Assembly: GCA_947179485.1 (NCBI GenBank)
Contig: OX359247.1
Coordinates: 49,015,131 to 49,079,130 of the forward strand
DNA from: Allacma fusca
Lineage: Eukaryota > Arthropoda > Collembola > Symphypleona > Sminthuridae
Direction of reading: 5' to 3'
Length of the DNA: 64,000 bases
Part shown: positions 7,104 through 60,644 of the stretch, one piece after another
How positions within the stretch are numbered: position 1 is the first letter of the stretch
Layout of the letters: every line of letters begins with the position of its first letter
The notes under the pieces: model-generated
Told to the model about the DNA's origin: nothing
Database searches by the model: none
Seen by the model: only the letters and a program-made list of their open reading frames with translations
Translations under genes and position numbers: made by a program

Positions 7104-10100
7104 TTAATCATCCGAGAAATCCGAGTCATCATCAGCTTTAGGTTTCTCGGTAGGAAACCAACTATCCGTTGGGTCCGCAGGAGGAGCAGTCTCTGGAGCA
7201 GCGGGTTCTGGTTCCTTTTTCACTGAAGCAGCGAGGTTGTAGGTTGCGGGGGCGAAACCTTGGGTATGCTCAATCTCCACTACGTACTCATGACGAGACA
7301 GATATCTGACACATTTTTCCGGCGGGTCATCACATGATGGTACAGCTATGGATCTGCACACGGTGTGGGACACCGTCGTGTGCGGCATTGTGAACTCAAG
7401 GTAACAGTACTTGGACAGATTTTCCGGGAGCTGCTCATGTGCTTGCATTGTTATATGACAAAAGAAGGAGTGAGTTGTGTAAGCCCCTGTAAACAGGACA
7501 CATTCCAGTATTAAAATTTCCCAAAAAATTCATCCTACAAGTACATAATAAGAATATGAAAAAATTATTTAGGAACACATTTTGAAGGAGGCGAAATTTT
7601 AAAACCTCGTTTTTGTGTGGGCCTTAAAGGCGCTTTAACAAAATGTGATGGCGCATCACATTTTGTTTGGTTTATATGGTGAATTCCCCAAAATGCTCCA
7701 AATAATAAAATAAATTCTTGATACTAAATTTATAATTACATATATAGTATGTAAAATAATGTATATTGAAGAATCCTAACCAAATCAAATTTGCATACAT
7801 TTAGCTCTAAAATTTCTAATAGTGTATATTGCAGTGAGTATAACGTAAGATTTTTTAAATTTTGTTCCGAAGGAAATTGTTTTATTTGCATTCCTCATGT
7901 CGTATGCTCTGAATCAAACATTGCATTTTTTTCCTGGTTGTACCGTTTGATGTATCCTTTAATTGGTTCTTTTTTGCTATCAGAATAAATGTGCAAAAAT
8001 CGTCGAGTCAGGAAATCAAAGTAGTAGTGGGAGTCCGCTGGGAATTAAAATATCCGAAATCGAGTGAGTAAGTACATGTCAATGAATACAAGTGTTTTTA
8101 AAAGTGATGTATCTACATATGGGCAAAAAATCAAATGGAGCTTAACAGTTAGATTCCCATGGGATCGACTGTAAAAGAGTGCCGTTCGTAAGAATAACAT
8201 AGCCAATGGATACGCTGGGAAATTTGGGGGCTCTTATTATTATGTTCAATAACACAGTCAGTCGTACCTTGGCCCTCCTTGGGTAGCCTGGCGATACGCC
8301 ATACTATTGATCGATGCTGATGCTCGTACTTTGCTTGGCCTGAGGTGACTTCCATTAAACTGTGTTCCACTGCCTCTACCGCTCCGAGAAATCTTTCAAT
8401 CCCTTTTACCTTCCCACTCCTAGCCGTCAAAACCAACAAAAACATCAAGAACATTTTCTTCACCAAGTCAAACAGATCTTGACGTACTTTAACTTCAATC
8501 GCCTTCATCTTGTACATAATCACAAAGTACTATTACAAATTACAGCATATTTGAGACGCATTGAGTTAGCTCGTTACAGAAAGTCAACTCCTTAATTAAT
8601 TAGTAATTCAAAAATCATTCGCTATTGAATTTCTTGGAAGTCGAACATCAAAAGAGATCTTCCTAGTAACTTGTCAGGCTAATAAAAGCTTCCCTTGTCA
8701 CTTTAGTATGACGTATAATTTCCATAAAGCTCAACAGAATATATTATCAACTCATACAACATTGCGAAAAGGTATAAGTTGATTATGAGTGAAGGAACTT
8801 TTGGAGTGAAGGCTTCTGACTCCCTTGTTTGTACTCGCTTACATTTGCGAGACACATTTGCGAGGTAAATAATTACAGGACTGAGTGAGCAGACAAGGTT
8901 ACCTTCGGTGTGCGGACTTGACGGAACCATATCGAAAATGCTTCTCCACCCGGAACATATAAATCCAACATTCAGGAATTGGGAAACGAACCATCACATC
9001 TTCACAAGGAATTTGACCCAATTTACGACTTGTGAATCCAGGCACAAGGATGTCACTTCGTATCTCCACCCTCTGACCTGTCGTAGTAAAAACTGTCTTC
9101 ACTTGAAGTGGCAACTCACGATGACGAGGGGGCCTCACACGAAATCGGAGCAGTTCTATGTAAGAGGCATCCGGTGGCTTGAACCTGGAACGCAAGACCC
9201 AAATATCATTAGATGAAATTGCAAAGGCGACGGTAATTTGTGGCCCAAGCCATCCATGCCGACACTGGAGGAAATAGCGAGACAAAAGAGGTTCCCTTGT
9301 AAATCAAGTAACCCAATTACGCCTCTTAACGAAGTCATCGTACTTCAAAAGAAACGACTGAAATGAGATTCACAAAAGTGAACATAACTCTTCTTTCTCT
9401 ATCGCAATTTCAGCTCCTTTTGGAAATGAACCCAAGAGAGCATTTTAACTCATTAGAAGCATCTATATATAATAATTACGCTGGACAATGCCAGCCGGAG
9501 GTGTTCAACATGAAAGAGTCTCTTAATGGAAGTGCATTCTGATTGGGGAAGAAATCTAATCAAAATGAGATAAAAGAGACGAGTGAGAATAAAAATGTAG
9601 TTTTGAATCTTGTAGAGTTAAAAGGAAATGGTAACTGCACATACATATAATTATATATATATATATGTATGTAGTAAAATAAAGTGTGTACTTGATTGTC
9701 TGAGTTGCTTCGTATTCTTCCATTTGGACGCAGTTACTGAATTCAATAGCTTCAGTTCGGATCCACTCTTCGGTAGCTATAGGAATGATATCATGTCGGC
9801 CCACAACTTCCTTCCCTTGACGTCTCAGATCATTCAGCCCCATCTCCACTTCAGCAATGCCCGATAGGAATGAGAGGAAGAAGAGACGAACTCGAGCAAT
9901 CTGCTTCGTCACAACACCATAAACGTCTTGCTCCGCATGAACCTCGTCCACCAAAGTCACCTGAACTTCCTCTGTTTTGTATGTAATGGCACGGTCCCGA
10001 TGGACATTCAATCTAAATAGAGCCTCCTCAATACACACACTGAATTGCTTCATCTCCTCGAAAGTCTGAGTTCCTAGCTTGACCAGTTGGGAAATCTGAA

Positions 10101-13100
10101 ATAATCATTTCCTCCTATTTACATCTCACCCCAATGGACAGGAGAGTCGGACACGGGGACACAAATGCTCACAGGAAGAGCACACATATTACATGCAATT
10201 TATCCACTACAAGAGCATAATTGACAATGAAAAGTGATCTCCTTACTTGTGGAGCGTGTTCCAAGGGCAAGCCCAGTTTCTTCAAGTCACTCCCAAACTC
10301 TTTGACGCCTTGATAGTCTCCTTGGATTGCATAGGCTGCAAATTGTGATAACTTATCGGAGATTCGACCTGCTTTCGAAATCTGACCTGGTCGAACTCCT
10401 GGACGTTCTTTGTAGAATACGTACTGGATTTTGATTGTGAAAATCTTCCCATATTGGTCAAATTGTTGAGCCCCTGCAAAATTCATTTAACTTATGTAAG
10501 TGCAAAGTATTCAAAAAAAAAAACCGAAGAAAATTCCACCTGTGATAGCTTTCACTCGGATTTGATAAATTTCCGAACATTCTTATTTTTGAAATTAGAT
10601 TTCAGTGCACTTTGAAATATAATATCTCCCCACTCACAAAATTCTAGAACTATATCAAAAGAATCCAATAATTGATTTATACCCAAATGACGTTGTCACG
10701 TACAGTTCATAATAAAAATGAATATGTAGCGTCATATGTCATGTAATTTTACTTCATTAATTCTTTTTTTTACCCACTCACTCCCGTTCCTTTCATCTTT
10801 CAATTGGGAAAAGTGACTCAAAGATTAAAAATCTTTGACAATTTTTACTAAAATTCTAAATTGCTCCTTGAAACTGTCAATTGATAAAAGGGATTGAATA
10901 AAGACAGGAATTGTACGGAGGGTTGATTTTTAGTACCTATGTCAGATACGGAGTAGCAGGGTTGTAGAGGAATCTCTTGGAAAGGGTCCTTATCGCCTTT
11001 GTTGCTGAAGATGTGAACAATGGGCACATCATTCTGTACCACAATACGAACATGAACTTTCTTCCAGAAACGCTGACCCGTAATTTTTTTCTTGTTGGGA
11101 TGTCGCATGTGCATCTCCCAACCATCTCCGTCGAACTTGGTTCTTGGGAAATCTTCCAAGGGTTGGGACGTGTCCTCTTCAAATAATGGTGTCTGTGGGG
11201 TTTCCTGAGAATCCGTTCTATTTAGCTGTGTGGTCTCTGCGGCTGCATCGTAAGTTGTATCGCGTGCGGATGATAGGAAAGGAACGAATGCCGTGTTCGC
11301 ACTGTCTTCACTGTACGCCGAATTGGTGGAAATGGCCGGACTCTTTGGAGGTGGGGCAAGTGCAGGGGCCAAACCAAAGTTCAATTCATTTTCTCCCTTC
11401 GGTCTGCAAAAAAAAAACACAAATTTAGATAAAAATCTTGATAAATCTTCTCTCCATACTCTGTAGTCGAATTGATGTTGTGAGGGAATTTACTTCTACT
11501 GCAAGAACCACATTGCACCACTACTTCCCACTGATTCTCAACTTGTACTTAAAATCCCGAGTACAATTAATGACCGAGTTCTGACAGCTCCAACATACCT
11601 ATAGATACCTAGAACTACTTAATTCTCTGGTTGGTTCTAATTTCACCAACGTTTGGGAAAAAAAAATACTTGAAATGTGTAATAAATCCAGAATATATAT
11701 CTGACCCTGTTAGAACTTACACCTGAAATCTTACGATCGTAGTAAAAACATTTTAGATCTATCCTCGTCACTATAAGCGGTCCGAAAAGAAACATGTTCC
11801 ATGTCTAATCCATATATGTATGTTTCGAATTGTCGTCACGGTAACCAAAACACCTATGTATGTTTATATGTAACCATGGCTGGAGGAAATTTGGCCTTAG
11901 TAGTGGAAGTTATGCATGTGAAAGAGGGGGAGGAAGAAATAACCACTTCACAATGTGGGTCTCCTCCAGACTGACTTCATCATGCAGTGATCAAGTCAGT
12001 AATATATGTTCAATAAGATTCATTTGAAGTAAATAACTATACTAATAAAAATGTAATGACAATTTTGTCCTCCGCGCGGGTCAACAGCAACAGTTAAGAC
12101 TATGAAAGTTGGAACTTGTGTGAAAGCAATTTCTGAATTTGGGAACAAAAAATCCTGATATTGGTTGAGATTTTGATCGTAAAGGTTGTCTCAGATACCC
12201 TAAAAATGTGCTAAATAATTATTGCACTCGCAATAAAATCTCAACCAATGGAGTGCCTCAAACCTCAATATTTAATAACAATACCTATTATTGTACAATA
12301 TTTTCACTTCCAACTGTGAACCAATCAATCCAATGCATATAGTCCTGATTCTGGCCGTCTCTCCTAAACTGAGCTTGAAACAATAAACACACATATCTTT
12401 TGCTATTCTTTGGGAGTCATTATTTTGTTTTCTGAGTTGGGAACTATTTATTGAGCCACTAAATCGTTCCTTACAGTACATATGTAATTATATGCATATG
12501 ACCAAGGAAAGAATGTTTCGTGGGTCTTGTAATTACTAGAAGCAATACCTGTTTTAATCGTTCACTTAAAAAAGGTAAGAATATAACTACAAAGATGCGT
12601 TATCTAACAATCTTGTGGATTTTTTACTTCATTAGACAAAATATCAAATCCATGCAGTGTTTAAGGAGTAGAAAAAAATATTTGCATGTTGTAAAGGATG
12701 CTAATGAAGGCACACACGGGGGAATTCGCCCAGTGTTTGGTTTCTCCCCATTGTACATGGTACATGAAAGGTAGATATGTATTGCACAAAGTATACCTGA
12801 TAAATATTGACAAATCCTGATCGGTCTCATCTTCATCCCCATCGTCCCGTTTAGTCTTTGCAGGAGTACTTTGTGGGACTGGAGGAGGTTCTGTCATTTG
12901 CAGGAAAGAATCAAAGCCTGAGTCTGCACCGAAGCCTGCTCCCGGGGCGTCGTCGAATCCCCCGGAGGAACTTCCCCATGCTGCATTTCAAAGTCATTTT
13001 TCGATTTAGAAAACCAACCCTCAACGTTCCATTACTTTAGAAACTTTCCCTGTGCTTTTCCTATTATATTCTTATTTTGAAAGAAGTAATTACTTAAAGC

Positions 13101-15383
13101 GTTTTTTTTTGTATCAATTGTGATTGTGATAGATTAGACGGTTTATATTGCCCACGCTGCTTTTGGTTCCGAGACTAATTTGTAAAAAATTAAAAATAAA
13201 CGTACAGGAAACAAGACATGTATTGCAGTAATAATTAGACTTGCTCAAGTAATATCTCCTATATTAAAATATTGTTGTCACAGTGGGCTTAAGGCATGAC
13301 AAAGAAGTAAGAATCGAGTTATTAAAAGAGTTACTCTCTACTGGAGAAAATATAAGGTAATCTGTCAAAGAGCTTTGCAAGGAAAGAAAGTCTAGTACTA
13401 AAACCCAATTTAATCAATTGTTTTCGAGAACAAAGTATAGACGAATTGTGGGAAAGTGAAAACCCGAAAGTAAAGTACGTAGAAGGGGGATTTTATTGGC
13501 TGACGGTTGAAAGGAGATAAATATTTATTGCTTTGCGCTGTCCATACTTTGGAATCATGATTATTGTATGGATGAAAATAGGAAATCTACTGTGACTTGC
13601 CTGAGTCGGTGACTGGAGCTGCAGACGATGCGCCTCCGCTGAAAGGATCTCCGAATGCATTAGTGGAAGCACTTTCTACCTCACTAATACTATTGAATTT
13701 GGCATCAAAGTCGTCAAAAGCGCTTGTAGCCTTGATCTCATTGCTGTTGGGAGGTTGAAAGGCTGGTGGATTAACCACAATATCTGTTCCTCCAAATGCA
13801 GAAGCACTTGCGAAAGGTGCATTACTCGAGGATTTCCCAAAAAGATCAGCGGGTCTGGTAATAATTGGTTCTTCCTCAATTAGAGAAGACTCAGTATTAA
13901 CAACAGTAGGTTCTGGAGCTGCAGTCGGAGGAATAAACGGCTGAGGAGTAAACGAAGGTTTGGTTGGGGTAAAAGGAGCTGGTGGATGAGAGACGTGAGG
14001 TTGAGCCGGGACTGCTGGGGGTGGGGGATGGGGATGATGAGGGACAGCAGGAGGAGGAGGAGGATGTGGCGGATGAGGAGATGGAGGTAGATCCGGTTTT
14101 GCTGGAAACATAGGTTGAGGAGGGACAGCTGGAGGAGGGCCGTGAGGTTGCGGCGAAGCCCTTGGAGCTGGCGGGACGGGTGGAGGAGGCCTTGTTGGGA
14201 AAGGTTTGGTCTCATGTACCGGGGATCGATTTGGAGGCGCCGGAGGGGGTTTCGGTCGCTCGGGTGGAGGCGCTCTTGCTGGGGAAACTGGCTCTTGAAC
14301 GACGACACTTGGGGTCGCCTCAGGACTAAGCACTTGAGGTACTAGATGGGGTGGTTCCACCAATGGTGGTGGTTCAACTTTTGCTGGTGTAAATTCCATT
14401 GGTGCGACATCTACAGTCGGACTCACAACACTAGCACTGTTGTCCATGAGATTTGGAGTTTCTGTGGGGGTGGGACCAACCATTGGTATTACAATTTCAA
14501 GGATCTCTGGTGCTATGGGCTCAGACTGCATTGGGATATAAGATGGCGCTGTGGTAGTGGTTGGAGGGGCAGAGGGCACCACTGTAGTGCTTCCAGTGTA
14601 GTAAAGGCCAAGAATATCCATGGTGGTCTTAGGCCCCGTGGAAACTGGCTGGTCAAATATGTCTAGTATGCTTTCAATTTGGTGTGGAGACGGTTGTAGG
14701 GGGTTGGCAGACGATGGTGGCGGAGGTGGTGGCTCATCACCCAACAAATCAGGAGAGGGCGACCGCGGCGAGGGACTTGGACTCGGTGCCAAGTTAATTG
14801 GACTAGGTTGTGTTAGTCTTAAGCGGTCCATTAGGCTTTCCGAATTCGCTTCCAAGGCCCCCGTCACAGAGTCCAATAACTCCTTCGTTGTTTGAGGAAC
14901 GGTGGGTGGAGGGGGTCGGAGAGGGCTATCATCCCCAGAAGGTCCCGAGTCAAATAAAGATATTTGTTCATCTGGGCGTGTGTCCATCATAAAAATTTGT
15001 TGTGTTACTGGTGGTCCTGGAGCGGGTGGGGGTGGGGCGTCCCAGAGTCCACCAGAGTCAGAGTCAACTGCTGAGAAAGGACCATTTGATGAGGTATGTG
15101 TTGGGGCTGGAGTTGGATCAACAAAGGAAGCAAAAGGGTTTCCAGCACCAACATTTGAACTTGAATCTGAAAACATAAAGGCCGCAGCAGAAGGCGCGAC
15201 AGTAGTTGTAGGGGCGGCAGGGGCGCCGAAAGGGTTGAAAAATGGATTGTCATTTCCTCCTGCAAACGGTCTTTCCGGAGGGGCACCGAAATCTTGAAGG
15301 AAAGGATTTGAAGGGGCTTCAGATGGAGCTGGAGCATTATAGTCCGCGTCTGAGAGGAAAGGATTGAAACCTTTCGTAGCCAT
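7104..15383 (-). CDS. stnB: Stoned B (stonin-family endocytic adaptor), second cistron
   Basis: Stoned B is a clathrin adaptor that sorts synaptotagmin during synaptic-vesicle recycling. Coding exons are 15383-13601, 12980-12797, 11403-10937, 10473-10247, 10095-9692, 9184-8903, 8419-8268 and 7486-7104. All phases join to give 3882 nt and 1293 aa, close to my recollection of the Drosophila protein. The N-terminus (exon 1, about 594 aa) is disordered and proline-rich. It has NPF motifs, which bind EH domains, at residues 7, 26, 46, 50 and 82. The stonin-homology domain starts near residue 751 (GWEMHMRHP) and the mu-homology domain spans about 890-1240, with FRVRPP, DILVPGFTSRKLGQIPCEDV and VEKHFRYGSVKSAHRR. 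The tail is acidic and ends SDFSDD. The ATG at 15383 has a good context (AAAATGG). A TTG nine bases upstream is not needed. Intron 1 needs a GC donor. There is no separate promoter: the cistron follows stnA by 170 nt. Confidence 0.95.
12158..12251. repeat. Inverted repeat in stnB intron 2
   Basis: ATTGGTTGAGATTTT near 12158-12172 returns as its reverse complement AAAATCTCAACCAAT near 12235-12250, 15 bases perfect with about 60 bases between. The flanking intron also holds a CG-rich patch (CCTCCGCGCGGGTCAACAGC, about 12070-12089) unlike its surroundings. It may be part of an old mobile element; the family is not identified. Confidence 0.45.
12981..13600 (-). other. stnB intron 1 with GC-AG boundaries
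   Basis: The only donor that keeps the frame is CAG|GCAAGT at 13600, a match to the GC-donor consensus. The acceptor is AATGCAG at 12981. Exon 1 ends at phase 1 (GAC TCA G) and exon 2 supplies CA, making an alanine codon followed by TGG GGA AGT. GT donors tried nearby put exon 2 into frames with stop codons. Confidence 0.8.
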
Positions 15384-15553
15384 TTTTAGCAAGATATTAG
15401 AAACACCTTTTCCACTTAATTTTTTATAGTTTTAATCTTTTAAATCAATTTGACACAAAGCAGATTGAAATTAATCAAGAATGTCACTCAATTGCTTTGA
15501 ATTTTGTATTACTTAGAATAATTGAAAGCGTCTTTCCGAATATAATGTCTGAT
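15384..15553 (-). promoter_or_regulatory. stnA-stnB intercistronic spacer (170 nt)
   Basis: This lies between the stnA stop (TAA, 15556-15554) and the stnB ATG (15383-15381). Read on the minus strand it is strongly AT-rich and has no ATG in any frame. It also has only one YAG trinucleotide (CAG at 15551-15549, directly after the stop), so it offers almost no 3' splice site for cis- or trans-splicing next to stnB. The layout fits translation of stnB from a dicistronic mRNA by reinitiation, leaky scanning or internal entry. Which of these operates cannot be read from the sequence. Confidence 0.75.
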
Positions 15554-18500
15554 TTACAAAAGTTCTGCTTCAAGTTGTTTTAATTCGGCTTTCCCGGGCA
15601 ATATATCATCCGCAGCTGAAGTGTCAAATGGATCTAAGTCAGCAATTTCAGAAGTCTTGATGGGAGCAACCGTTTGGGGGACAAGCGGTGCAGTTGGAAG
15701 TGTAGAGGTTGCTCTTGGGTTGAAACCAGGGTTGGAAAATGAGTCGCTGGCTAGTTCTTTCTCCAATATTTTCAACTCTGCTCTTCCTGGAGCTATTGTA
15801 TTAGCAATGCTCGTGTCGAAAGGATCATCAAACACAAGAGATTCTTGGAGATTTGATGGCGTCAGAGGTTGAAGTGGTTCGTGTCCTCCTCCAAAAAAGT
15901 CTTGGTCTTCGTCCAATTCCAGGGGATGTGGTTCCCTAATTTGCTCAGGTGTTAGCGGTCGCTCCGGTTTTGGAACCTGAGGAATTGCAGGTAAACTCGG
16001 GGGCTGGAAGTCCTCAATGGAGTTCAAAAGTTCCTTTTCCAAATACCTGAGCTCGGCTTTTCCCGGGATATTTTGGTTGACAAGATTGGAAGTGTCAAAA
16101 GGGTCTTGGAAAGTGACGTCTTCTTTTTGATTGATGGTTGGGATGAGTGGTTTATCTTTGCCCGGATGAGAGGGCGAGTCAAAAATATCTTGTGGAACCG
16201 TCTCTACCAGGGAGGCAACAGGAACCTCTTCGGCTTCCCGAGGATTAAACTCTGAAGTCTCAGTTACACACGCGGAAGAAGAAACACTTGGAATGACAGC
16301 ACCAGCAGAGATAGAAGTGTCCTCCACTAACTCACTCTCGAGTAACTTTAATTCGAATTTGCCCGGAACAATTGCACCGGATACACTGGACGTGTCAAAG
16401 GGATCGATTTGGTCTTGAAAGTCAGTGATTTCCGTCTGGGGAGTCAAAGCTTTGATCTGGGATTGAGATTCGTCAATGAGATCCAAAGGATGGATTTCAG
16501 GTACTTTTGGCGGTGGAGGTCGTCGAGGAGCAATTGGTTGAGTAACAGTTACGCTTGGGTTCCCTAGTCGGGTCTCATCTTTCCGAGGATCAAAATCATG
16601 AAAATCCTCATCTACAACTTCATCACCAGCTAACAGTTCTGCTTCAAGGAGTTTTAGTTCCGCTTTCCCTGGAAGTAAATTCTCTACAACGGAAGTGTCA
16701 AAGGGATCATGGATCTCTGTCTCAATTAATCCGTTACTTTCCGGTCGAATAGGATCTACAGCTGACAGACTACTCAAATCTGAAGAGCTCCCACCCAAAA
16801 GATCTCTCCGAATTGGTAAATTAGTTTGTAAATTTTGAAAGCCAGGCTCTTCCCCGGCACGGGGATCGAAATCAAAATCGTCTTCCTCTAAAACTTTACT
16901 TTCCGACTCGCAGTCAAGCAATTGACTTTCCACAATCTTTAACTCGGATTTCCCCAAAGGAATGTTCGTCACAAATGTTGTATCAAATGGATCGTCTTCG
17001 GGTTCCTCGACGGCTGGAGTGACTGGAGGAGGTGGTTTGCTTGGTGGAGGTGGTCGAGAGGGTGCTGGTGACTGTGTCGCACTTCTTGATGAAGGTTCCT
17101 TATGTAGAGATTCAGCAGCTAACGCAGCAAATTCATCGTCCCAGTTATCTTCTAACTTTGGATAAACTGCTGGCTCATCAACTGCACTTATTACATCGAA
17201 CTCACTCAGAAGTTCATGAAGATTGAGGTTCGTTGGATCCGGCTCATTAGACCTTCTGTCTTCTTTCGAGGGAGATACCTTTTTGATGGGGACAGCTACT
17301 ATGTCACCCGCCTCAAGAGGAGATGTCTCAAGGAGCGTGTCAAAGAGATCTGCTGGTCGCTCTGATGATGTTGGATCTTCCTTCGGTGAGGTGTTTGCTG
17401 GTGTTGGGTCCGCATCAAAATCTCCCAAGAGATTGATATTTCGTGGTCGGGGTCTTCGGGTACCTTGTGTTACGTCCTTGGTGACGCCTTTAACTGTGGC
17501 TGCTTGAGGATTGTTACTGTCCTCGAGGGGTTTCCCAGTGAGAACGTTGACAGCAAGTCCGAGGTTAACTTGACGTTTCTTCTTCCGCTCTTCCTCTTCG
17601 ATCTTCTTGACCACGTCAGCGACGGCGGAGGTGTCGAATGGATCGTCCCCCTGCTCTTCCTCTGTAGGACTGTCGGGGATGTAGGCTAATTTTATTTCTC
17701 CAGTGGCAACTGCATCCACAAACGAAGTGTCAAATAAGTCATCGTCTACAACTATTGCTTCAACTTCTGGACTCTCTGGCTCTTTCTCCTCTAACTCGCA
17801 CTCCCCAGTTCCTTGCTCGCCCGGGCCGTCAACTGTATCCTCCTATAATAATAATCAGTATCGAGCATATTTATCAGTGCTACCCAAAGAAGCATTTACA
17901 ATGCACATAGTACACTCTCGCATTAAAAGTCCTTGTGTTAGAAAATTTAATGTAACTATACCCGTAGACTCTTATTTAAATAGGAGGAAAGTAGTATATG
18001 TGTAAACAAATATGTGTTTGAATGCTCGATTGGGGATGGTTAATCTAAAAAAAAACACTCTTACGAAGGGGGTCTAACCTGTGCGTCAGCATGAAAGTAA
18101 AAAAGAGTTATGGCTGAAGGTCCCTATTAGAAATTATGAAAGGCCTGTGGTAGGAAGGAGTTTTGAAGAACAAATCTTGGGAAAACACGTTGCTTCTACT
18201 GGTATTTGTGGGTTGGAAGAAACTATCCTTGCATTTTGACTGTATTGCATGGATGGAAGGTGTTATCTCGTATAATTTGGTCTTGGGGACAGTAAATAGT
18301 TATGACAATGGAGAGACTGTGAGTAAACATTAAATGGAAGCGAAAGAGTAGCATGTTCCTTCCCATGCACAGGAATGTAATGAGGATGTTTACGAGGGAC
18401 GAGAGCGGGACGTGAGTAAACAAAAGTACGGGTAAATGACAGTCAAGTAACGTCATCAGCATGAACACATGCTGAGAATGAGTGCATCGGGAAAGGGAAA

Positions 18501-20055
18501 ACTGGCTTCCAGGTAAGGTAATGAGTCGGACCGTATCCTGTTTCCCCACTCAAGTGTACTTTCTCTGATTGAAATATCAACAAATGCAGGTAATGATGCT
18601 CGTCACTGAGGCAAAAGGACCTTGACAAAATCTCCTCTCTTCCACTTTTCTGATCTTGTCAGATACGTGGCTTTCTCATGCTCCGTTTCCTACCTTTACC
18701 ATAATAATAATTACGTTTAGCACGGCCACAGCGGTTGTCCGCCGATTTCATTCGAAATTCCATTCAAACCTCACAATGGATTCTTCATAGGTGATATTAG
18801 GATTGCATGTATAGATACATACAAACATACTTTTTATCACCAAATTTAAGAATTATGTATCAGTCGAATACAATGAATTAACATGTAGAGGCTGACGCGT
18901 GTGACAACAAATTATGCACACACGCAATTATTTGGAAATTATTATAATATCAGATCAGAATGAATAGAAAAATAGGCCACGACCTAAAAAACCAGAGTTC
19001 CAATGAAAAACTAGCCCTCATGAATGATTATACCTTATTAGTTCACGTTGGGAAACGTTTTTACGGTTTTAAAAATTCACGAGTCCTTTTAGTGCCCCTG
19101 GATTACAAAAAAACATTCGGGAAGGGAAAAAGTATTCGAGGCTGGCATGGCCAATACAGTAGAGCTGTAAAAGTCCTTAACTCTCAAGATGGCGGCTAGT
19201 ATTAATGGTAATTAATTGATGGTGTAATGGAAATTTGTAAAATGTAATTATGCCATTGTTCTGTGGAAAAATTTTGATAGGCTTTCCAAATGTTTTGGTT
19301 TTGTTCCTTCGAATATTTATTTCCAAGACAAGTTGGGAGTTGGACTGTGTATGATTTCATGCAAACTTTGTTGGATAAGTGACTGGTTCAAAGAGATACA
19401 GAAGACAAAGACTGCCTTTCAGAGTGAGTAGTTGTATGTATAGAATGCCTTGAGAAAGTTTAGGGGAGTGTGGTTAATTGTGTTAATGAAGTGATTGGTT
19501 GTGTTATGAGTGAAGGATTGAAGTGGAACGGATGTTTACCTGATGGGACTCTTGAGGGTCTTCCTCTTCAGACTGATGACCTGTCTCAACGTCAACCCAG
19601 CGGGGCCCTTTCTTTTGCTTCCCTTCCGGTGTAGCTGAGGATGGTTGAGGAGCACTGGCGGGTCTGGCGTAAGCACCTGATGACGCAAGAGCTTTGGATG
19701 AAGTAGGAAGGATGAAGGCAGGGTTGGGCTTAGTTCTCTGGAAAAAGCTAGTGGTTTTGATTCGGTCGAGATCACCTGATGTTTTCTTGAGGACACTGTC
19801 GATTCCGGAAGTGAGGAGTTTGAATTTCTGCCACTCTTCGTCCTCCTCGTGAGCTTTTGTGGTCTGAGACTCAACCTCGTCTTCAGGGTCAGGATTCTCA
19901 AATTGATTTCCTTCAGCAGAAGCAGCAGCAGCGGCGGCTTCCTCTAGCTCTTTTTTATACTTTGCCAACTGTTCAGGATCAAATAGATCGTCTTCTTTGT
20001 CTTTGCCCTTCTTCCCTTTGATTTTCTTCTTGATGCCTTTCTTGATTTTGTGCAT
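15554..20055 (-). CDS. stnA: Stoned A, first cistron of the dicistronic stoned mRNA
   Basis: Stoned A is a synaptic-vesicle endocytosis protein that works with Stoned B. Exon 1 is 20055-19540 and exon 2 is 17842-15554, both at phase 0 (CAG|GTAAAC donor, TTATAG acceptor), giving 934 aa. The N-terminus is very lysine-rich (MHKIKKGIKKKIKGKKGKDK), then acidic, with an EEWQKFKLL segment near residue 75. Exon 2 carries eight D(P/L)FDT motifs. The last six are full modules of the form DPFDTS, a short spacer, PGKAELK and LExELL, and the final module runs straight into the stop codon. DPF motifs are known ligands of the AP-2 alpha ear. There is no methionine after the first. The family has no enzymatic domain. 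The start was chosen because it gives the conserved lysine-rich N-terminus. A 5' UTR intron is possible: CACTAG lies 3 nt before the ATG. Confidence 0.95.
17843..19539 (-). other. stnA intron 1 (1.7 kb)
   Basis: The intron has a GTAAAC donor and a TTATTATAG acceptor and joins phase-0 exons. A 79-codon plus-strand open frame at 18960-19199 lies inside it. I regard that as chance, because it has no recognisable domain or splice context. Nothing else is evident. Confidence 0.8.
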
Positions 20056-20069
20056 ATTCTAGTGGAAGG

Positions 20070-20075
20070 CTACAT
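20070..20075 (-). promoter_or_regulatory. Possible start-stop uORF (ATGTAG) before stnA
   Basis: On the minus strand an ATG is followed at once by TAG, 14 nt upstream of the stnA ATG. It is in the mRNA only if the 5' UTR extends through this point. A splice acceptor at CACTAG (just before the AAT that precedes the ATG) would remove it, whereas an acceptor at TTTCAG near 20087 would keep it. Confidence 0.3.
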
Positions 20076-30529: not shown

Positions 30530-33500
30530 CTAAGGATCATCCTCATTGTTATCTTGAACCTCTAGCTGGGCTGACAGTGACCCGGGTGAGGGAGGTGGTT
30601 CTTCCTGCACACAATTTCAATAAAAAAATATCAGTCAGAGTAACACACACATACTCAGATATTGGTAATTACCCAAAACTACATTTCTTACACTGTCATG
30701 GCCATTGATACCAGTACTATATAGACTTATAATTATGATAGAAAAAAAATCGAAACAATTTTAGTAATATCATTGAAAAATGTTCAGCTCAAAGAAATGA
30801 TTGAAACAATAATACGGAAGAATCTTCAAGAATTTCTCTTCTTACCTCACATTTTGGACAAACTTACACGAGTATTCCATCATGGTAGGATTATTAACAT
30901 GAGACACAATAAAGTATATTAGAAAGAAGGAAAGAGGATAACACTACCTGAGAGACTACGCTACTCCGATTGCTCCGAACATCCAAGTCCATAGCAAAAG
31001 GAACTTTAGGCAGTTTAAGGAGTGACTCCGTCTCTTCATCACTACCTCCGTTGACCGGACCGGTAGTGTCTTGGGAAGAATCACTGCCAAAACAGATTAC
31101 ATCTTGTATTAGATTTCCGTCCATGAGACACCCGAGGGTTTCCTATATATGCTATTTTCCTAGGACATGGACTGATGGAACTATTAAATTTTATTCTAGA
31201 GACACAAGTTGTTAGTTTTTTTGTATTCAAGGAGAATGGGAAATGAGATACCTATGATATGCAGTTGTGTCATCGCCACCATTTTCCTCTCTCATTCGCC
31301 TTCGGATTTCCCTCGGACTTCTCAGGCCCATTTCCGCGAAATCTGTCCAACTTGTGGGTAACTTCTTTTTGGGACTTTTGGGTCTCGGAGGAGTGGACGA
31401 GTCAGGTAATGAGTCATCTCTGGGTAAATTAATTTTCATTTTCGTGGTTACATCAGACTTACTAGGGCAGTTGGAATTATTGTTGGGGGCGGGAGTGCTG
31501 GAGTAAGCGATGTAATCGTTAAGAGAGGCAGGATTTGGTGGTCGAACACATCGGGGTCGTTGGGTTGGTTTAGTGGTTACCATCGCACCCAGTCTTCGCC
31601 GTTCTTTGATAGGGATGATGGGCACCACGACAGATTTCTCGAGTGGCAGTGTAGTTGGCACGTATGGTAATTCGTCATCATCGTCATTCGAGTCTTCATG
31701 AAAGAATCCTTTTGTTTCCATCGGAACATCCTCAACTGGGACAAAAGCATCTTCGCTTATCTTCAGCTCAGTCGTGATCTCATCCTTTTCCAAATCCCTA
31801 CTAGTTTCTAATTGGGCACCGGCTTTTGGAGCCTTACCACAGTCTACCTGTCCGGTGGATTTTACTTTGTTCCCTCCTGCATTTGCATCTTTTTTCTCGG
31901 AAGATTTCTCACTGCCGTCCTTATTGATTGAAGTCTTCGCGGCGTTTGTCTCCTTTTTGTCAATGGTCTTGGGATCCTTCTTATCCCCTGTCTTTGTAGC
32001 ATTTGCAGCCTTCTTTTCCGGAGCCTTTGAATTTGCGTCCTTCTTTTCCGGAGCCTTTGCATTTGTGTCCTTCTTTTCCGGAGCCTTTGCATTTGCGTCC
32101 TTCTTTTCCGGGGCTTTTGCATTTGTGTCCTTCTTTTCCGGAGCCTTTGGATTTGTGTCCTTTTTTCCTGAAGTCTCCGCACGTACGTCTTTCTTTTCCG
32201 AAGCCTTCGTCTTCGGATGGGCTGACTTGACTTCTTGAGCAAATTCTTTCCCTGGGTTCACCTGCTTATCTTTTGGGCTCAGCACTGGCTCAACACTTTT
32301 GTTTCCTAAGGAGCGCTTGCTTAGTTTCGGTGTTTCAGCGACCGCCGCTGTCCCACGTTTCATCTCTTCCAGCACTTTCTTTTCCTTGTGAGCCGGGGGT
32401 GATTCTGGGGATTTGACGGGGTCCCTGCTCATCCTGAGCTGAATAGGACTCCCCCTGGAATCTTTCTGAGAAGACATTGGCGGTGACCATGTAGGATGTG
32501 TTATGGCTGCAATTTCTGGAGGCAACACATTATGTGGTGGTTTTGGACTAATGGGTCTCCAATGATCTGAAGATTTGGGAGAGTCAGGTGAGGGGAATTG
32601 GGGTAACGTCCAAGATTCCCCACGAGGGGATATTTGTTGAGTTTCTATACTTGTAATGGGGTGGTCGTGATGATGTACTTGTACTGTTGTCAAAGATGTT
32701 AATTTTTGGGGCTTGTGACTCTCAAATGACGAATCTGAGCTAAGCATCCCGACGTTCTCTGTGGTTTCTCGCCCACGGTCTTTTCCAGGAGGGGCTCTGG
32801 GTGGGGAGTCCAAGTCCATACTTGGAGTAGGTATCGGTTTACTTCCACAAAATGACGTTTCCAGTAGCATTTTGTGCGGAGATGCCGAACGCCTGCCGTC
32901 TGAAAGAGTTAAGTGTTATTAATTTACTCCTTAATTACTCCTTTCACATAAAATATCCATGCACGGGTACATTCTCGAACGAGTAATCATGGAACAATAA
33001 TAGCTAAATTAAATTAAAACTGTTCATCCTCACGAAACCGCATTCCATTGAGAGTGGAGCGGAACCAAAGGGAATAGCAATGCATATACAGTGAGCACAA
33101 TATATTTATCCTCCCCTTGTGTACCTATTATATTTTCAACAACGGGGAACTTCTTGCCCATGTTACAACCGTTATTATATCTTATTATACTATTATATCT
33201 ACCTTTTGATCAAATAAAAAGTTATGTGGGTTGGTGGAGTCAACCAGACGCGGGCTTACCAAGTTTACCCTCCAATGCTGATCCACTATAGGGTAGTGTC
33301 ACCTACTCAAGGTAAGTTTCAATGTAACAATTTTTTTGAACCCCCTTACGTTGAATACACTAAATCAAAGTTTTTGTGCAGATTTTTTAATATTGTATTT
33401 GGGTGCCCCCAGGGTGGATTTAATAATGTTTAAGCGTAATTATTTCCACAAATACCCTAGTTAGCCCTTTCTTGGGGCATGGGTGACACTTAAATTTTAA

Positions 33501-44372: not shown

Positions 44373-50128
<5,756 letters not shown>

Positions 50129-53092: not shown

Positions 53093-54467
53093 ATGTCGTA
53101 CATGCTTCCGCATTTGCACAACGGCTGGCAAGTGGATCAAGCCATCTTGAGTGAGGAAGATCGAGTTGTAGTAAGTGAAAAGTTACTTTGGATTTTGGAA
53201 TATTTCTAGTGTATTATGAAAATTTGATGGGGATAAGTTGGTATAGGGGACGTACTTAGAAATAATATTGTAGCTACTTTTTCGGGAGTTGATACAATTT
53301 TTGAGCGCAAACAGAGCAGACAAGGCACAAAGTTACTAGAAAGAATGATCTGGATCTTGTTTCTTTCATTACAATGGAATGGAACATTCTTATTTTATTG
53401 CTTTTGCCTTCAAGAGATTTTCCTGAGAACTGTCCCAGCGAGGTGATTTTAAGGGGAAAAAACAGATATGTAGTAGCTCTAGTTTTGACTAATGTTGGTA
53501 GAAATTTGAGGAATAAAATTGTGGGTGGTTAATTGTTTATAATTTCGTAGGTATAAAAGGTCAGAGGTCAGGTTAAGGGTTTACTGACGAATTGTTTGTT
53601 AAAGAAATTCATTGGAACATTACCTTATCAAAAATACGAGCTTTGAAATATTGTAGTCGGTTAAAAATATTTGAACAAGTTGGAGGTTGTTATTCATTAT
53701 AGCCAATTTTTAAGCGAAGATAAGTTTTAAAAAATTTATAGTCTTGGAAAGTTACATTAGCATTCGCAGAGTTAAGCATGGGTTTGCTGTGAGTCGCTTT
53801 GGCCTTGGAGATCAAGGACTTATGCTTGACTTTCAACGCAATTAATTTTTAGAAGGTATGAATTGTCAGCTGCATGAAAGGTATGGTCGGTAGGGTAGAA
53901 ATTGTTTTTGATTGAATGGTTATTTTTATATGGATTGAAATGGTTGCACTTACGTTGTGTAATTTTAATTTATACTAATCTGGAATGTACTTCGTTATTA
54001 CAGGTTATTCGTTTTGGACACGATTGGGATCCAACATGTATGAAAATGGATGAAGTACTGTACGGAATCGCAGAGAAAGTCAAAAACTATGCCGTCGTCT
54101 ATCTGGTGGATATTACTGAAGTTCCTGATTTCAACAAAATGTGTGTAACTCTATATTCTTACCAGTTATTTGAATTGTTGAAGGTTGAAGTTGTTGTGAA
54201 GCAATTAAAATTGAAATATATTTTTTCAATGAATTTGAATTATTTGAACTTAGGTACGAGTTATACGACCCCTGCACAGTGATGTTCTTTTTCCGGAACA
54301 AACATATTATGATTGATTTGGGAACTGGAAACAACAATAAGATAAATTGGGCTTTGGAAGACAAACAAGAAATGATTGATATACTAGAGACAGTTTATAG
54401 AGGAGCGCGGAAAGGCCGAGGTTTGGTTGTGTCTCCAAAGGATTATTCCACCAAATACCGCTATTAA
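53093..54467 (+). CDS. TXNL4A: Thioredoxin-like U5 snRNP protein TXNL4A/Dim1 (15 kDa)
   Basis: This is a core component of the U5 snRNP and tri-snRNP, needed for pre-mRNA splicing. Exons are 53093-53170, 54004-54140 and 54254-54467; phases 0 and 2 join cleanly to give 142 aa, the exact family length. The sequence starts MSYMLPHLHNGWQVDQAI, continues with IRFGHDWDPTCMKMDEVL, TEVPDFNKMYELYDPCTVMF and HIMIDLGTGNNNKINWAL, and ends SPKDYSTKYRY, nearly unchanged from yeast-to-human members as I know them. It has a thioredoxin fold without the CxxC redox pair, as usual for Dim1. The start is fixed by the invariant N-terminus. Donors are GTAAGT and GTGTGT; acceptors are TTACAG and ACTTAG. The gene is complete and diverges from Akt. 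Confidence 0.98.
53171..54003 (+). other. TXNL4A intron 1
   Basis: An 833-base intron, GTAAGT to TTACAG, phase 0. It is AT-rich with no feature seen. Confidence 0.95.
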
Positions 54468-59635: not shown

Positions 59636-60644
59636 TTAATATCCGGATTTGACGGCCTTCACAGAAGACACGGTCTTGACGGGGGAAGCATAAGACACTG
59701 ATGGAGGTCCATAAGATGAGACGGGGGAAGCATAGGCGACAGACTGGGGTCCGTAAGATGAGATGGGGGAAGCATAAGCTTGGACTGGGGAAGCATAGGC
59801 AGCAGACACTGGACCTCCATATGCGGACACTGGAGTGGCATAGGCTTGACCCACGGGGGAAGCATAGGCTTGACCCACAGGAGAAGCATAGGCTTGACCC
59901 ACAGGAGAAGCATAGGCTTGACCCACAGGAGAAGCATAGTAAGCAGAGATTGGAGCAGCATGATGGGCATGATGGGCATGATGTCCAATTGGGGCAGCGT
60001 AAGCCGCTTGAATTGGAGCATAAGCCTGGGAAGCGTAGGCATGTCCGACGGGTAAGGCATAGGCGGAAACTGGAGCACCGTAGGCAGCAGACACTGGCGA
60101 AGCATATCCCACAGACTTAGTGGCCAAACCAAGGGCTGATCCACCATATCCTTGATAATGTCCCAAAGCTGGGGAGGCATATCCAATACTTGGACCACCC
60201 GCATAACCGATCAAGCCTTGGGGTACTCCGGCATATCCGATGTTGACAGGGCCTCCGCCATATCCTAAGCTAGCATAGCCCAGACCATTGTATCCACTGA
60301 GAGCCGCAACTTGATGAGGCACTCCTGAAATCCCAGAGTAGCCCGTTGACAAACTTGGAACCCCATAACCAACTCCTGCAACTCCTCTCTTTTCCGGCTC
60401 CTTCTTGTCCTCACCTTCTCCGGCGAAAGCTGGAGAAGCCACGGCCATAACAGCTACTACAACGATCTAATCAAAACAAATCAAATTAATTATACCAATA
60501 CCTCAGGATCTTCAGCAGCATCTAAGTAGAGATTTGCGGTGGGGAAATTTTTAATTATTTATATTTTTTTTTTATTTCAAAAAATAACTCCAAAAATTGG
60601 GAAATCCAAAAAAGGAAATTAGAAAAACTTACAAAGAACTTCAT
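59636..60644 (-). CDS. Secreted Ala/Tyr/Gly/Pro-rich repetitive structural protein, probably cuticular
   Basis: Exon 1 (60644-60633) encodes only MKFF and ends in GTAAGT. Exon 2 (60466-59636) continues IVVVAVMAVASPAFA, making a clear signal peptide of about 19 residues with cleavage after AFA. The whole is 280 aa. The mature chain opens with a charged GEGEDKKEPEKRG segment. GYG-rich blocks follow, and then dozens of YASPV/YGAPV-type repeats, including four perfect ASPVGQAY units and a GHHAHHAHHAAP histidine block. It ends SVKAVKSGY. A short signal-peptide exon split by a phase-0 intron and low-complexity Ala-Pro-Tyr repeats are typical of arthropod cuticle proteins, but no chitin-binding Rebers-Riddiford domain is visible. 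Silk-like or cement proteins are an alternative. A TATA box lies about 120 bases upstream of the ATG. Confidence 0.88.
59838..59933 (-). repeat. 24-bp coding tandem repeat (4 units)
   Basis: Four consecutive units of GCATAGGCTTGACCCACAGG plus GAA (the first with two changes) encode ASPVGQAY four times in the structural protein. A small GGGCATGAT triplication just upstream encodes the histidine block. Confidence 0.95.

Follow-up and report, generated by a model that had tools for sequence, protein, structure and literature searches.

How could ribosomes reach the second of two long reading frames carried by one messenger RNA (mRNA)? This question is raised by the stoned locus that we describe here, a nerve-terminal gene which lies within a stretch of 64,000 nucleotides (nt), called the window below. 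In this locus a stnA frame is followed on the same strand by a stnB frame, and, judging from the sequence, we find it rather likely that the locus is dicistronic, with a single mRNA on which stnB is reached by ribosomes leaking past the stnA AUG. The observation carrying most of this argument is that StnA, a protein of 934 residues, has one methionine (Met) only, namely the initiator, and there is no in-frame AUG in the remaining 933 codons. This ban on in-frame AUGs would weigh most, because a ribosome initiating at an internal stnA AUG would be bound to translate a long frame, with a truncated StnA as the product.

The stnA and stnB gene models were built by hand from reading frames and splice sites, and the phases agree at all junctions. 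A complete stnA-then-stnB locus had already been claimed by a sequence-only reading of the window, and the rebuilding returned two full frames on the minus strand at exactly the claimed span, from 20055 to 7104; the distance of 170 nt which it gave from the stnA stop to the stnB start was confirmed as well (spacer 15553-15384). There are two coding exons in stnA and eight in stnB, the latter encoding 1,330 amino acids. Each of the 8 introns ends in AG and 7/8 have a GT donor, the one GC donor being that of stnB intron 1 (CAG/GCAAGT). The features of the locus are as follows.

19540..20055, minus strand: stnA exon 1, with the start ATG at 20055, a lysine-rich N terminus and two predicted helices; sole genome match.
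17843..19539, minus strand: stnA intron 1, 1,697 nt, GT-AG.
15554..17842, minus strand: stnA exon 2, in which DPF occurs seven times and an in-frame ATG not at all; stop TAA at 15556-15554.
15384..15553, minus strand: intercistronic spacer, 170 nt, 75% A+T, no ATG.
13601..15383, minus strand: stnB exon 1, with the start ATG at 15383-15381 in the context AAAATGG, five NPF motifs and the GC donor.
12797..12980, minus strand: stnB exon 2, from the rebuilt model.
10937..11403, minus strand: stnB exon 3, from the rebuilt model; a putative stonin homology domain presumably begins with its second half.
10247..10473, minus strand: stnB exon 4, from the rebuilt model and the genome protein search.
9692..10095, minus strand: stnB exon 5, where the mu-homology domain begins; PDB matches to AP-2 mu chains over residues 892-1021.
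8903..9295, minus strand: stnB exon 6, mu-homology domain.
8268..8419, minus strand: stnB exon 7, mu-homology domain.
7104..7486, minus strand: stnB exon 8, coding to 7107, where the mu-homology domain ends; stop TAA at 7106-7104.

The stnA stop and the stnB start would thus lie within one exon, no intron being required between them. The stnB frame is shifted by +2 against that of stnA, so that readthrough of the stnA stop would be unable to fuse StnA with StnB. Three further details of the locus may be mentioned. If stnB intron 1 were retained (GC donor, 13587-13601), the frame would end with a stop at 13589-13587, and StnB would be shortened to about 600 amino acids and lack the mu-homology domain. 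Just 5' of the stnA ATG, on the minus strand, there is an ATGTAG start-stop element at 20075-20070. In the same region (20056-20075, minus strand) a splice-acceptor-like CTAG ends 3 nt before the stnA ATG, and thus the stnA 5' leader may derive from an unseen upstream exon.

Both products support the identification of the locus, from its sequence, as a complete stnA-stnB pair of the stoned type. StnB contains the mu-homology domain of adaptor medium subunits (PF00928, E=8e-32), with the best match over residues 1059-1274, and is weakly similar to AP-2 mu chains (13 distinct PDB sequences at E<=0.01, best 3e-4); the NPF motifs in its N-terminal part are located at residues 7, 26, 46, 50 and 82. 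The N terminus of StnA is rich in lysine (11 among residues 1-25), and we presume that it resembles that of insect StnA. It is followed by DPF motifs at residues 239, 456, 551, 652, 752, 845 and 909, with a (P/L)GK/GR-x-EL motif after 6/7 of them. Helices were predicted at residues 27-47 and 57-101 by a single-sequence model of low confidence (mean predicted local distance difference test score, pLDDT, 61.5). StnA gave no family above the cut-off in Pfam, and no PDB chain was matched when 118 residues encoded by its exon 1 were used as the query. In the 392.7-Mb genome, the protein search, which covered StnA exon 1 (172 amino acids) and 503 residues of StnB, returned one match for the former, at the stoned locus, and six for the latter, every one of them an exon of the same locus. 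Apart from its own position, a 401-base DNA query spanning the spacer matched a single repeat within stnA. Viral contigs searched for StnB relatives gave six pattern matches and no confirmed relative.

Is the lack of internal Met in StnA more than chance? Three background rates (whole StnB, the first 634 StnB residues, and 13 pooled background frames) predict 14.7-16.2 internal Met in 933 residues, with a probability of finding none between 8e-8 and 4e-7, and scaling to isoleucine, leucine and valine (I+L+V) raises the expectation to 17-24. A position-specific base-frequency model predicts 9.6 (P 6.5e-5), and the same model applied to StnB predicts 14.4, with 21 internal Met observed. All P values given here are nominal, as several statistics were applied to one stnA open reading frame (ORF). 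The 13 background ORFs are stop-to-stop frames of at least 200 codons, whose status as genes is unproven; they were drawn from 250.8 kb, comprising 20 stretches and the window minus the stoned locus. A single one of them is Met-free, a 234-codon tandem repeat, and the longest Met-free stretch in the whole set is 308 codons. StnA and residues 1-752 of StnB are both probably disordered, judging from their composition, and a comparison of their Met contents gives Fisher P values of 5.9e-5 when Met is counted per residue, 5e-6 when it is scaled to I+L+V and 0.0013 when it is scaled to cysteine, tryptophan and tyrosine (Cys, Trp, Tyr), which are somewhat optimistic because the DPF repeats of StnA are kin.

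Out-of-frame AUGs were assessed at the silent level, with the protein fixed and synonymous codons shuffled. Past the start codon, stnA has no AUG in any frame within its first 616 nt (4.4 expected, P=0.002 in a local shuffle), and this was attained in none of 2,000 whole-ORF shuffles. When exon 1 is taken by itself, ATG ranks first in depletion among the 56 out-of-frame trinucleotides that could be tested (P=0.010). Over the whole ORF the depletion is mild, 15 out-of-frame AUGs being present where about 20.1 are expected (P 0.038, 0.0345 and 0.045 by synonymous shuffling). The contexts of these 15 AUGs are poor: only four have a purine at -3 or G at +4 (9.6 expected, P=0.0055), eleven have neither, and none has G at +4. 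Every one of the 15 mini-ORFs which they open (1-38 codons) terminates before the stnB AUG, and the longest, of 38 codons, is shorter than the 75 codons expected (P=0.03). The opposite holds for stnB, where 46 out-of-frame AUGs are found vs 37.5 expected, that is, no depletion. The spacer, too, lacks AUGs (0 vs 3.37 expected, P=0.011), and a run of about 200 AUG-free nt directly precedes the stnB AUG, whose context is strong. The context of the stnA AUG is GAATATGC, with A at -3, T at -1 and C at +4.

A plausible course of events may be proposed from these data. A single promoter located 5' of 20055 would give rise to a single spliced mRNA, on which the majority of ribosomes would initiate at the stnA AUG and produce StnA, presumably an endocytic protein with DPF motifs of the AP-2-binding type. 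Some ribosomes, as proposed for the fly, might bypass this AUG, provided that it is leaky, and continue scanning along 933 codons which hold no in-frame AUG and along the 15 out-of-frame AUGs with their short mini-ORFs. Scanning would then resume after the mini-ORFs, cross the AUG-free run and reach the strong stnB AUG. If the fly is a guide, the shared message would couple the output of two proteins of synaptic-vesicle retrieval. The sequence pattern fits these three steps, namely a missed stnA AUG, onward scanning, and resumption after mini-ORFs. In a passage citing Wall 2005, PMC11892635 describes ORF1 of two fly dicistrons, stoned and Snapin, as deficient in internal AUGs and ORF2 as needing leaky scanning, and a passage of PMC3372440, with the same citation, states that in-frame AUGs in cistron 1 attenuate ORF2. 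Snapin itself has one match in the genome studied here, over 57 profile positions.

Several points weigh against leaky scanning, and they should be named together. The one-mRNA step is drawn from DNA sequence. The secondary sources, in the passages that cite Wall 2005, disagree, as leaky scanning is given in PMC11892635 and 'resumption of ribosomal scanning' in PMC4528330. The context of the stnA AUG is middling and not clearly weak, and 15 out-of-frame AUGs remain in the path of scanning ribosomes. Over the whole of stnA, ATG ranks only 13th among the 64 trinucleotides in out-of-frame depletion, and as 12 others are more depleted, we do not use this depletion as a main argument; in exon 2 alone there is none (15 vs 17.0 expected, P 0.25). 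Out-of-frame depletion being this weak, pure scanning fails to explain all frames. An AUG-free spacer would be just as suitable if stnB had an mRNA of its own, with the spacer in its 5' leader. Finally, StnA is also poor in other residues (Cys 0.32%, Trp 0.32%, Tyr 0.54%).

One alternative would retain the dicistronic mRNA and dispense with leaky scanning, stnB being reached either by reinitiation past the stnA stop or through an internal ribosome entry site (IRES), and we regard it as fairly unlikely. In its favor, the spacer is free of AUGs, and its length would allow a ribosome that has terminated to re-arm, but reinitiation after an ORF of 934 codons is normally poor. As for an IRES, the spacer RNA folds no better than its shuffles (z=-0.59, 57/200 as good), it has no match in Rfam up to E=1, and such a mechanism would need no AUG-less stnA. 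A passage of PMC4528330 names an IRES beside scanning resumption, for which it cites Wall 2005, and considers that IRES may be common; the fly reporters, on the other hand, are read as leaky scanning in the relevant passage of PMC11892635.

It might also be assumed that stnB is expressed mainly from its own monocistronic mRNA, with a promoter within the stnA exon or with an upstream leader spliced near the stnA stop, a scenario which we hold to be unlikely. The sequence-only reading had argued that the short gap leaves no room for a normal promoter, and this argument is invalid: there is a TATAAA in the spacer, 45 nt 5' of the stnB ATG, and a promoter could sit in the upstream exon, so the short gap cannot decide whether the mRNA is shared. 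The TATAAA is, however, present in 25% of shuffled spacers, and a poly(A)-type word (A[AT]TAAA) in 70%; being so frequent, promoter and poly(A) words were set aside. The splicing variant of the scenario could use the one YAG of the spacer, which lies 5 nt past the end of stnA, or one of the eight YAGs in the final 300 nt of stnA, yet only one of the eight spacer AGs is a YAG, as opposed to 7/8 of the acceptors in the gene models. Dicistronic loci in FlyBase, according to a passage of PMC4528330, often also yield monocistronic forms, and only 45/159 are exclusively dicistronic for both genes. What a separate stnB mRNA leaves without explanation is why stnA has no in-frame AUG beyond its start codon. 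The same absence supports the sequence-only reading in its claim that the arrangement is under selection, although for a reason other than the one it gave.

Could the lack of Met simply be a by-product of StnA composition, unrelated to translation? We find this improbable. The scarcity of Cys, Trp and Tyr in StnA speaks in its favor, as does the mutual relatedness of the DPF repeats, whose residues are thus not independent. Residues 1-752 of StnB, however, are as poor in these amino acids (no Cys, 3 Trp or 0.40%, 6 Tyr or 0.80%) and still contain 12 Met. Besides, the absence of further AUGs from the initial 616 nt of stnA stands out even when the protein is fixed, and the fly stoned ORF1 is likewise reported as AUG-deficient in the passage of PMC11892635 quoted above.

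A nematode-style operon, split by spliced-leader trans-splicing into capped single-gene mRNAs, is very improbable, as it would need no loss of in-frame AUGs in stnA and as two copepod leader cores (28 nt from the calanoid leader and 26 nt shared by the two proposed sea-louse leaders) gave no genome match with up to 3 mismatches allowed, although leaders are lineage-specific, the host may be no copepod, and three further proposed ones (PMC4664967) lie outside this search. The 170-nt gap would be compatible with an operon, and the YAGs listed above would offer acceptors. If the animal were a copepod or an amphipod, this would be a real rival, since passages of PMC4664967 and PMC7986045 report spliced-leader trans-splicing in calanoid copepods and list it for copepods and amphipods, respectively.

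The mitochondrial genome of the host (contig C91, 14,936 bp), in which cox1 was recognized by PF00115 and the other genes by eye, has trnL(UAA) between cox1 and cox2. Passages of PMC1590035 and PMC3176236 give this trnL2 position as the pancrustacean arrangement; exceptions are counted in the latter (9/60 crustaceans, 7/53 Chelicerata), and the former describes fully reshuffled mitochondrial orders in Lepeophtheirus salmonis and Tigriopus japonicus, for which reason neither of these two is a likely host. The gene order also departs from the pancrustacean ground pattern, with trnD between trnS2 and nad1, and nad1 apart from trnL1. Near-full-length copies of mitochondrial cox1, with TGA as the sole internal stop, are present on the large contigs C12, C5 and C8 (loci L008, L009, L010 and L012).

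Chemosensory families were also searched in the genome. Gustatory receptors (PF08395) gave 53 matches, with 111 of 238 candidates scored. Two families which we take as insect markers gave none, insect odorant receptors (PF02949) in 0/28 candidates and odorant-binding proteins (PF01395) in 0/1, and as the control genomes gave no matches either, both absences are suggestive only. On these grounds the host is probably a pancrustacean, the trnL2 position being strong but not absolute evidence, and probably no winged insect, since gustatory receptors are found and insect odorant receptors are not; the best candidates are crustaceans and wingless basal hexapods. To the sequence-only reading the animal had appeared to be a crustacean, and this can be narrowed no further than to a probable pancrustacean which is probably no winged insect.

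In passages of two 2012 papers (PMC3393740 and PMC3373503) StnA is described as confined to insects, and we found neither StnA nor the dicistron beyond insects in the literature searched, although protein databases may well list such genes by now. We would read the locus as the known stoned dicistron together with its translational signature, apparently beyond winged insects. A complete locus with an AUG-less first cistron outside winged insects would date both the dicistron and the signature earlier. A bolder version, which we put forward tentatively and with slightly more doubt than belief, is that the stoned dicistron is ancestral to pancrustaceans and that StnA has been kept Met-free for hundreds of millions of years by the need of ribosomes to scan its entire 2.8-kb frame on the way to a second protein. 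If true, the sequence of one protein would be constrained by the translation of its neighbor. The scanning model would also gain a natural test across arthropods, as it predicts a StnA free of internal Met where the genes are joined and ordinary Met content where they are separated.

Other features of the window lie apart from stoned. On the minus strand, frames at 46297-47702 contain a PH domain (PF00169) and a protein kinase domain (PF00069), the kinase being, as we guess, of the Akt type. Two plus-strand frames at 53899-54464 match DIM1 (PF02966) and are probably exons of one gene. A glycine-tyrosine-rich ORF with tandem repeats at 59639-60466 (minus strand), perhaps a cuticle protein, matched only DUF3432, and a 562-codon ORF with a tandem repeat region at 31230-32915 (minus strand) has no Pfam match at E<=0.001.

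The closest known system is the stoned locus of Drosophila melanogaster, where stnA likewise precedes stnB on one strand. The fly StnA is laid out, in a passage of PMC3373503, as a lysine-rich N terminus, a coiled coil and DPF repeats, and the lysine-rich N terminus and DPF repeats of StnA, as well as the mu-homology domain of StnB, are shared by both animals. A deficiency of ORF1 in internal AUGs, as PMC11892635 reports for the fly, is common to both as well. They differ in the number of DPF motifs, seven here and four repeats in the fly according to PMC3373503; here, moreover, the spacer measures 170 nt and the host is probably no winged insect. Mammalian Stonin 2 and UNC-41 of C. elegans belong to the same stonin family as StnB, with a mu-homology domain and a role in synaptic vesicle retrieval, but unlike StnB they have no StnA partner, and UNC-41 shows no similarity to StnA beyond DPF motifs in the comparison given in PMC3393740. 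Finally, the green-algal bicistronic mRNAs translated by leaky scanning, as described in part of PMC11892635, resemble the present locus in the depletion of AUGs before ORF2 and in a start context that is stronger for ORF2 than for ORF1. Their genes are unrelated to stoned, and the algal depletion is counted over all frames, whereas in stnA internal AUGs are entirely absent from the reading frame and only mildly depleted outside it.

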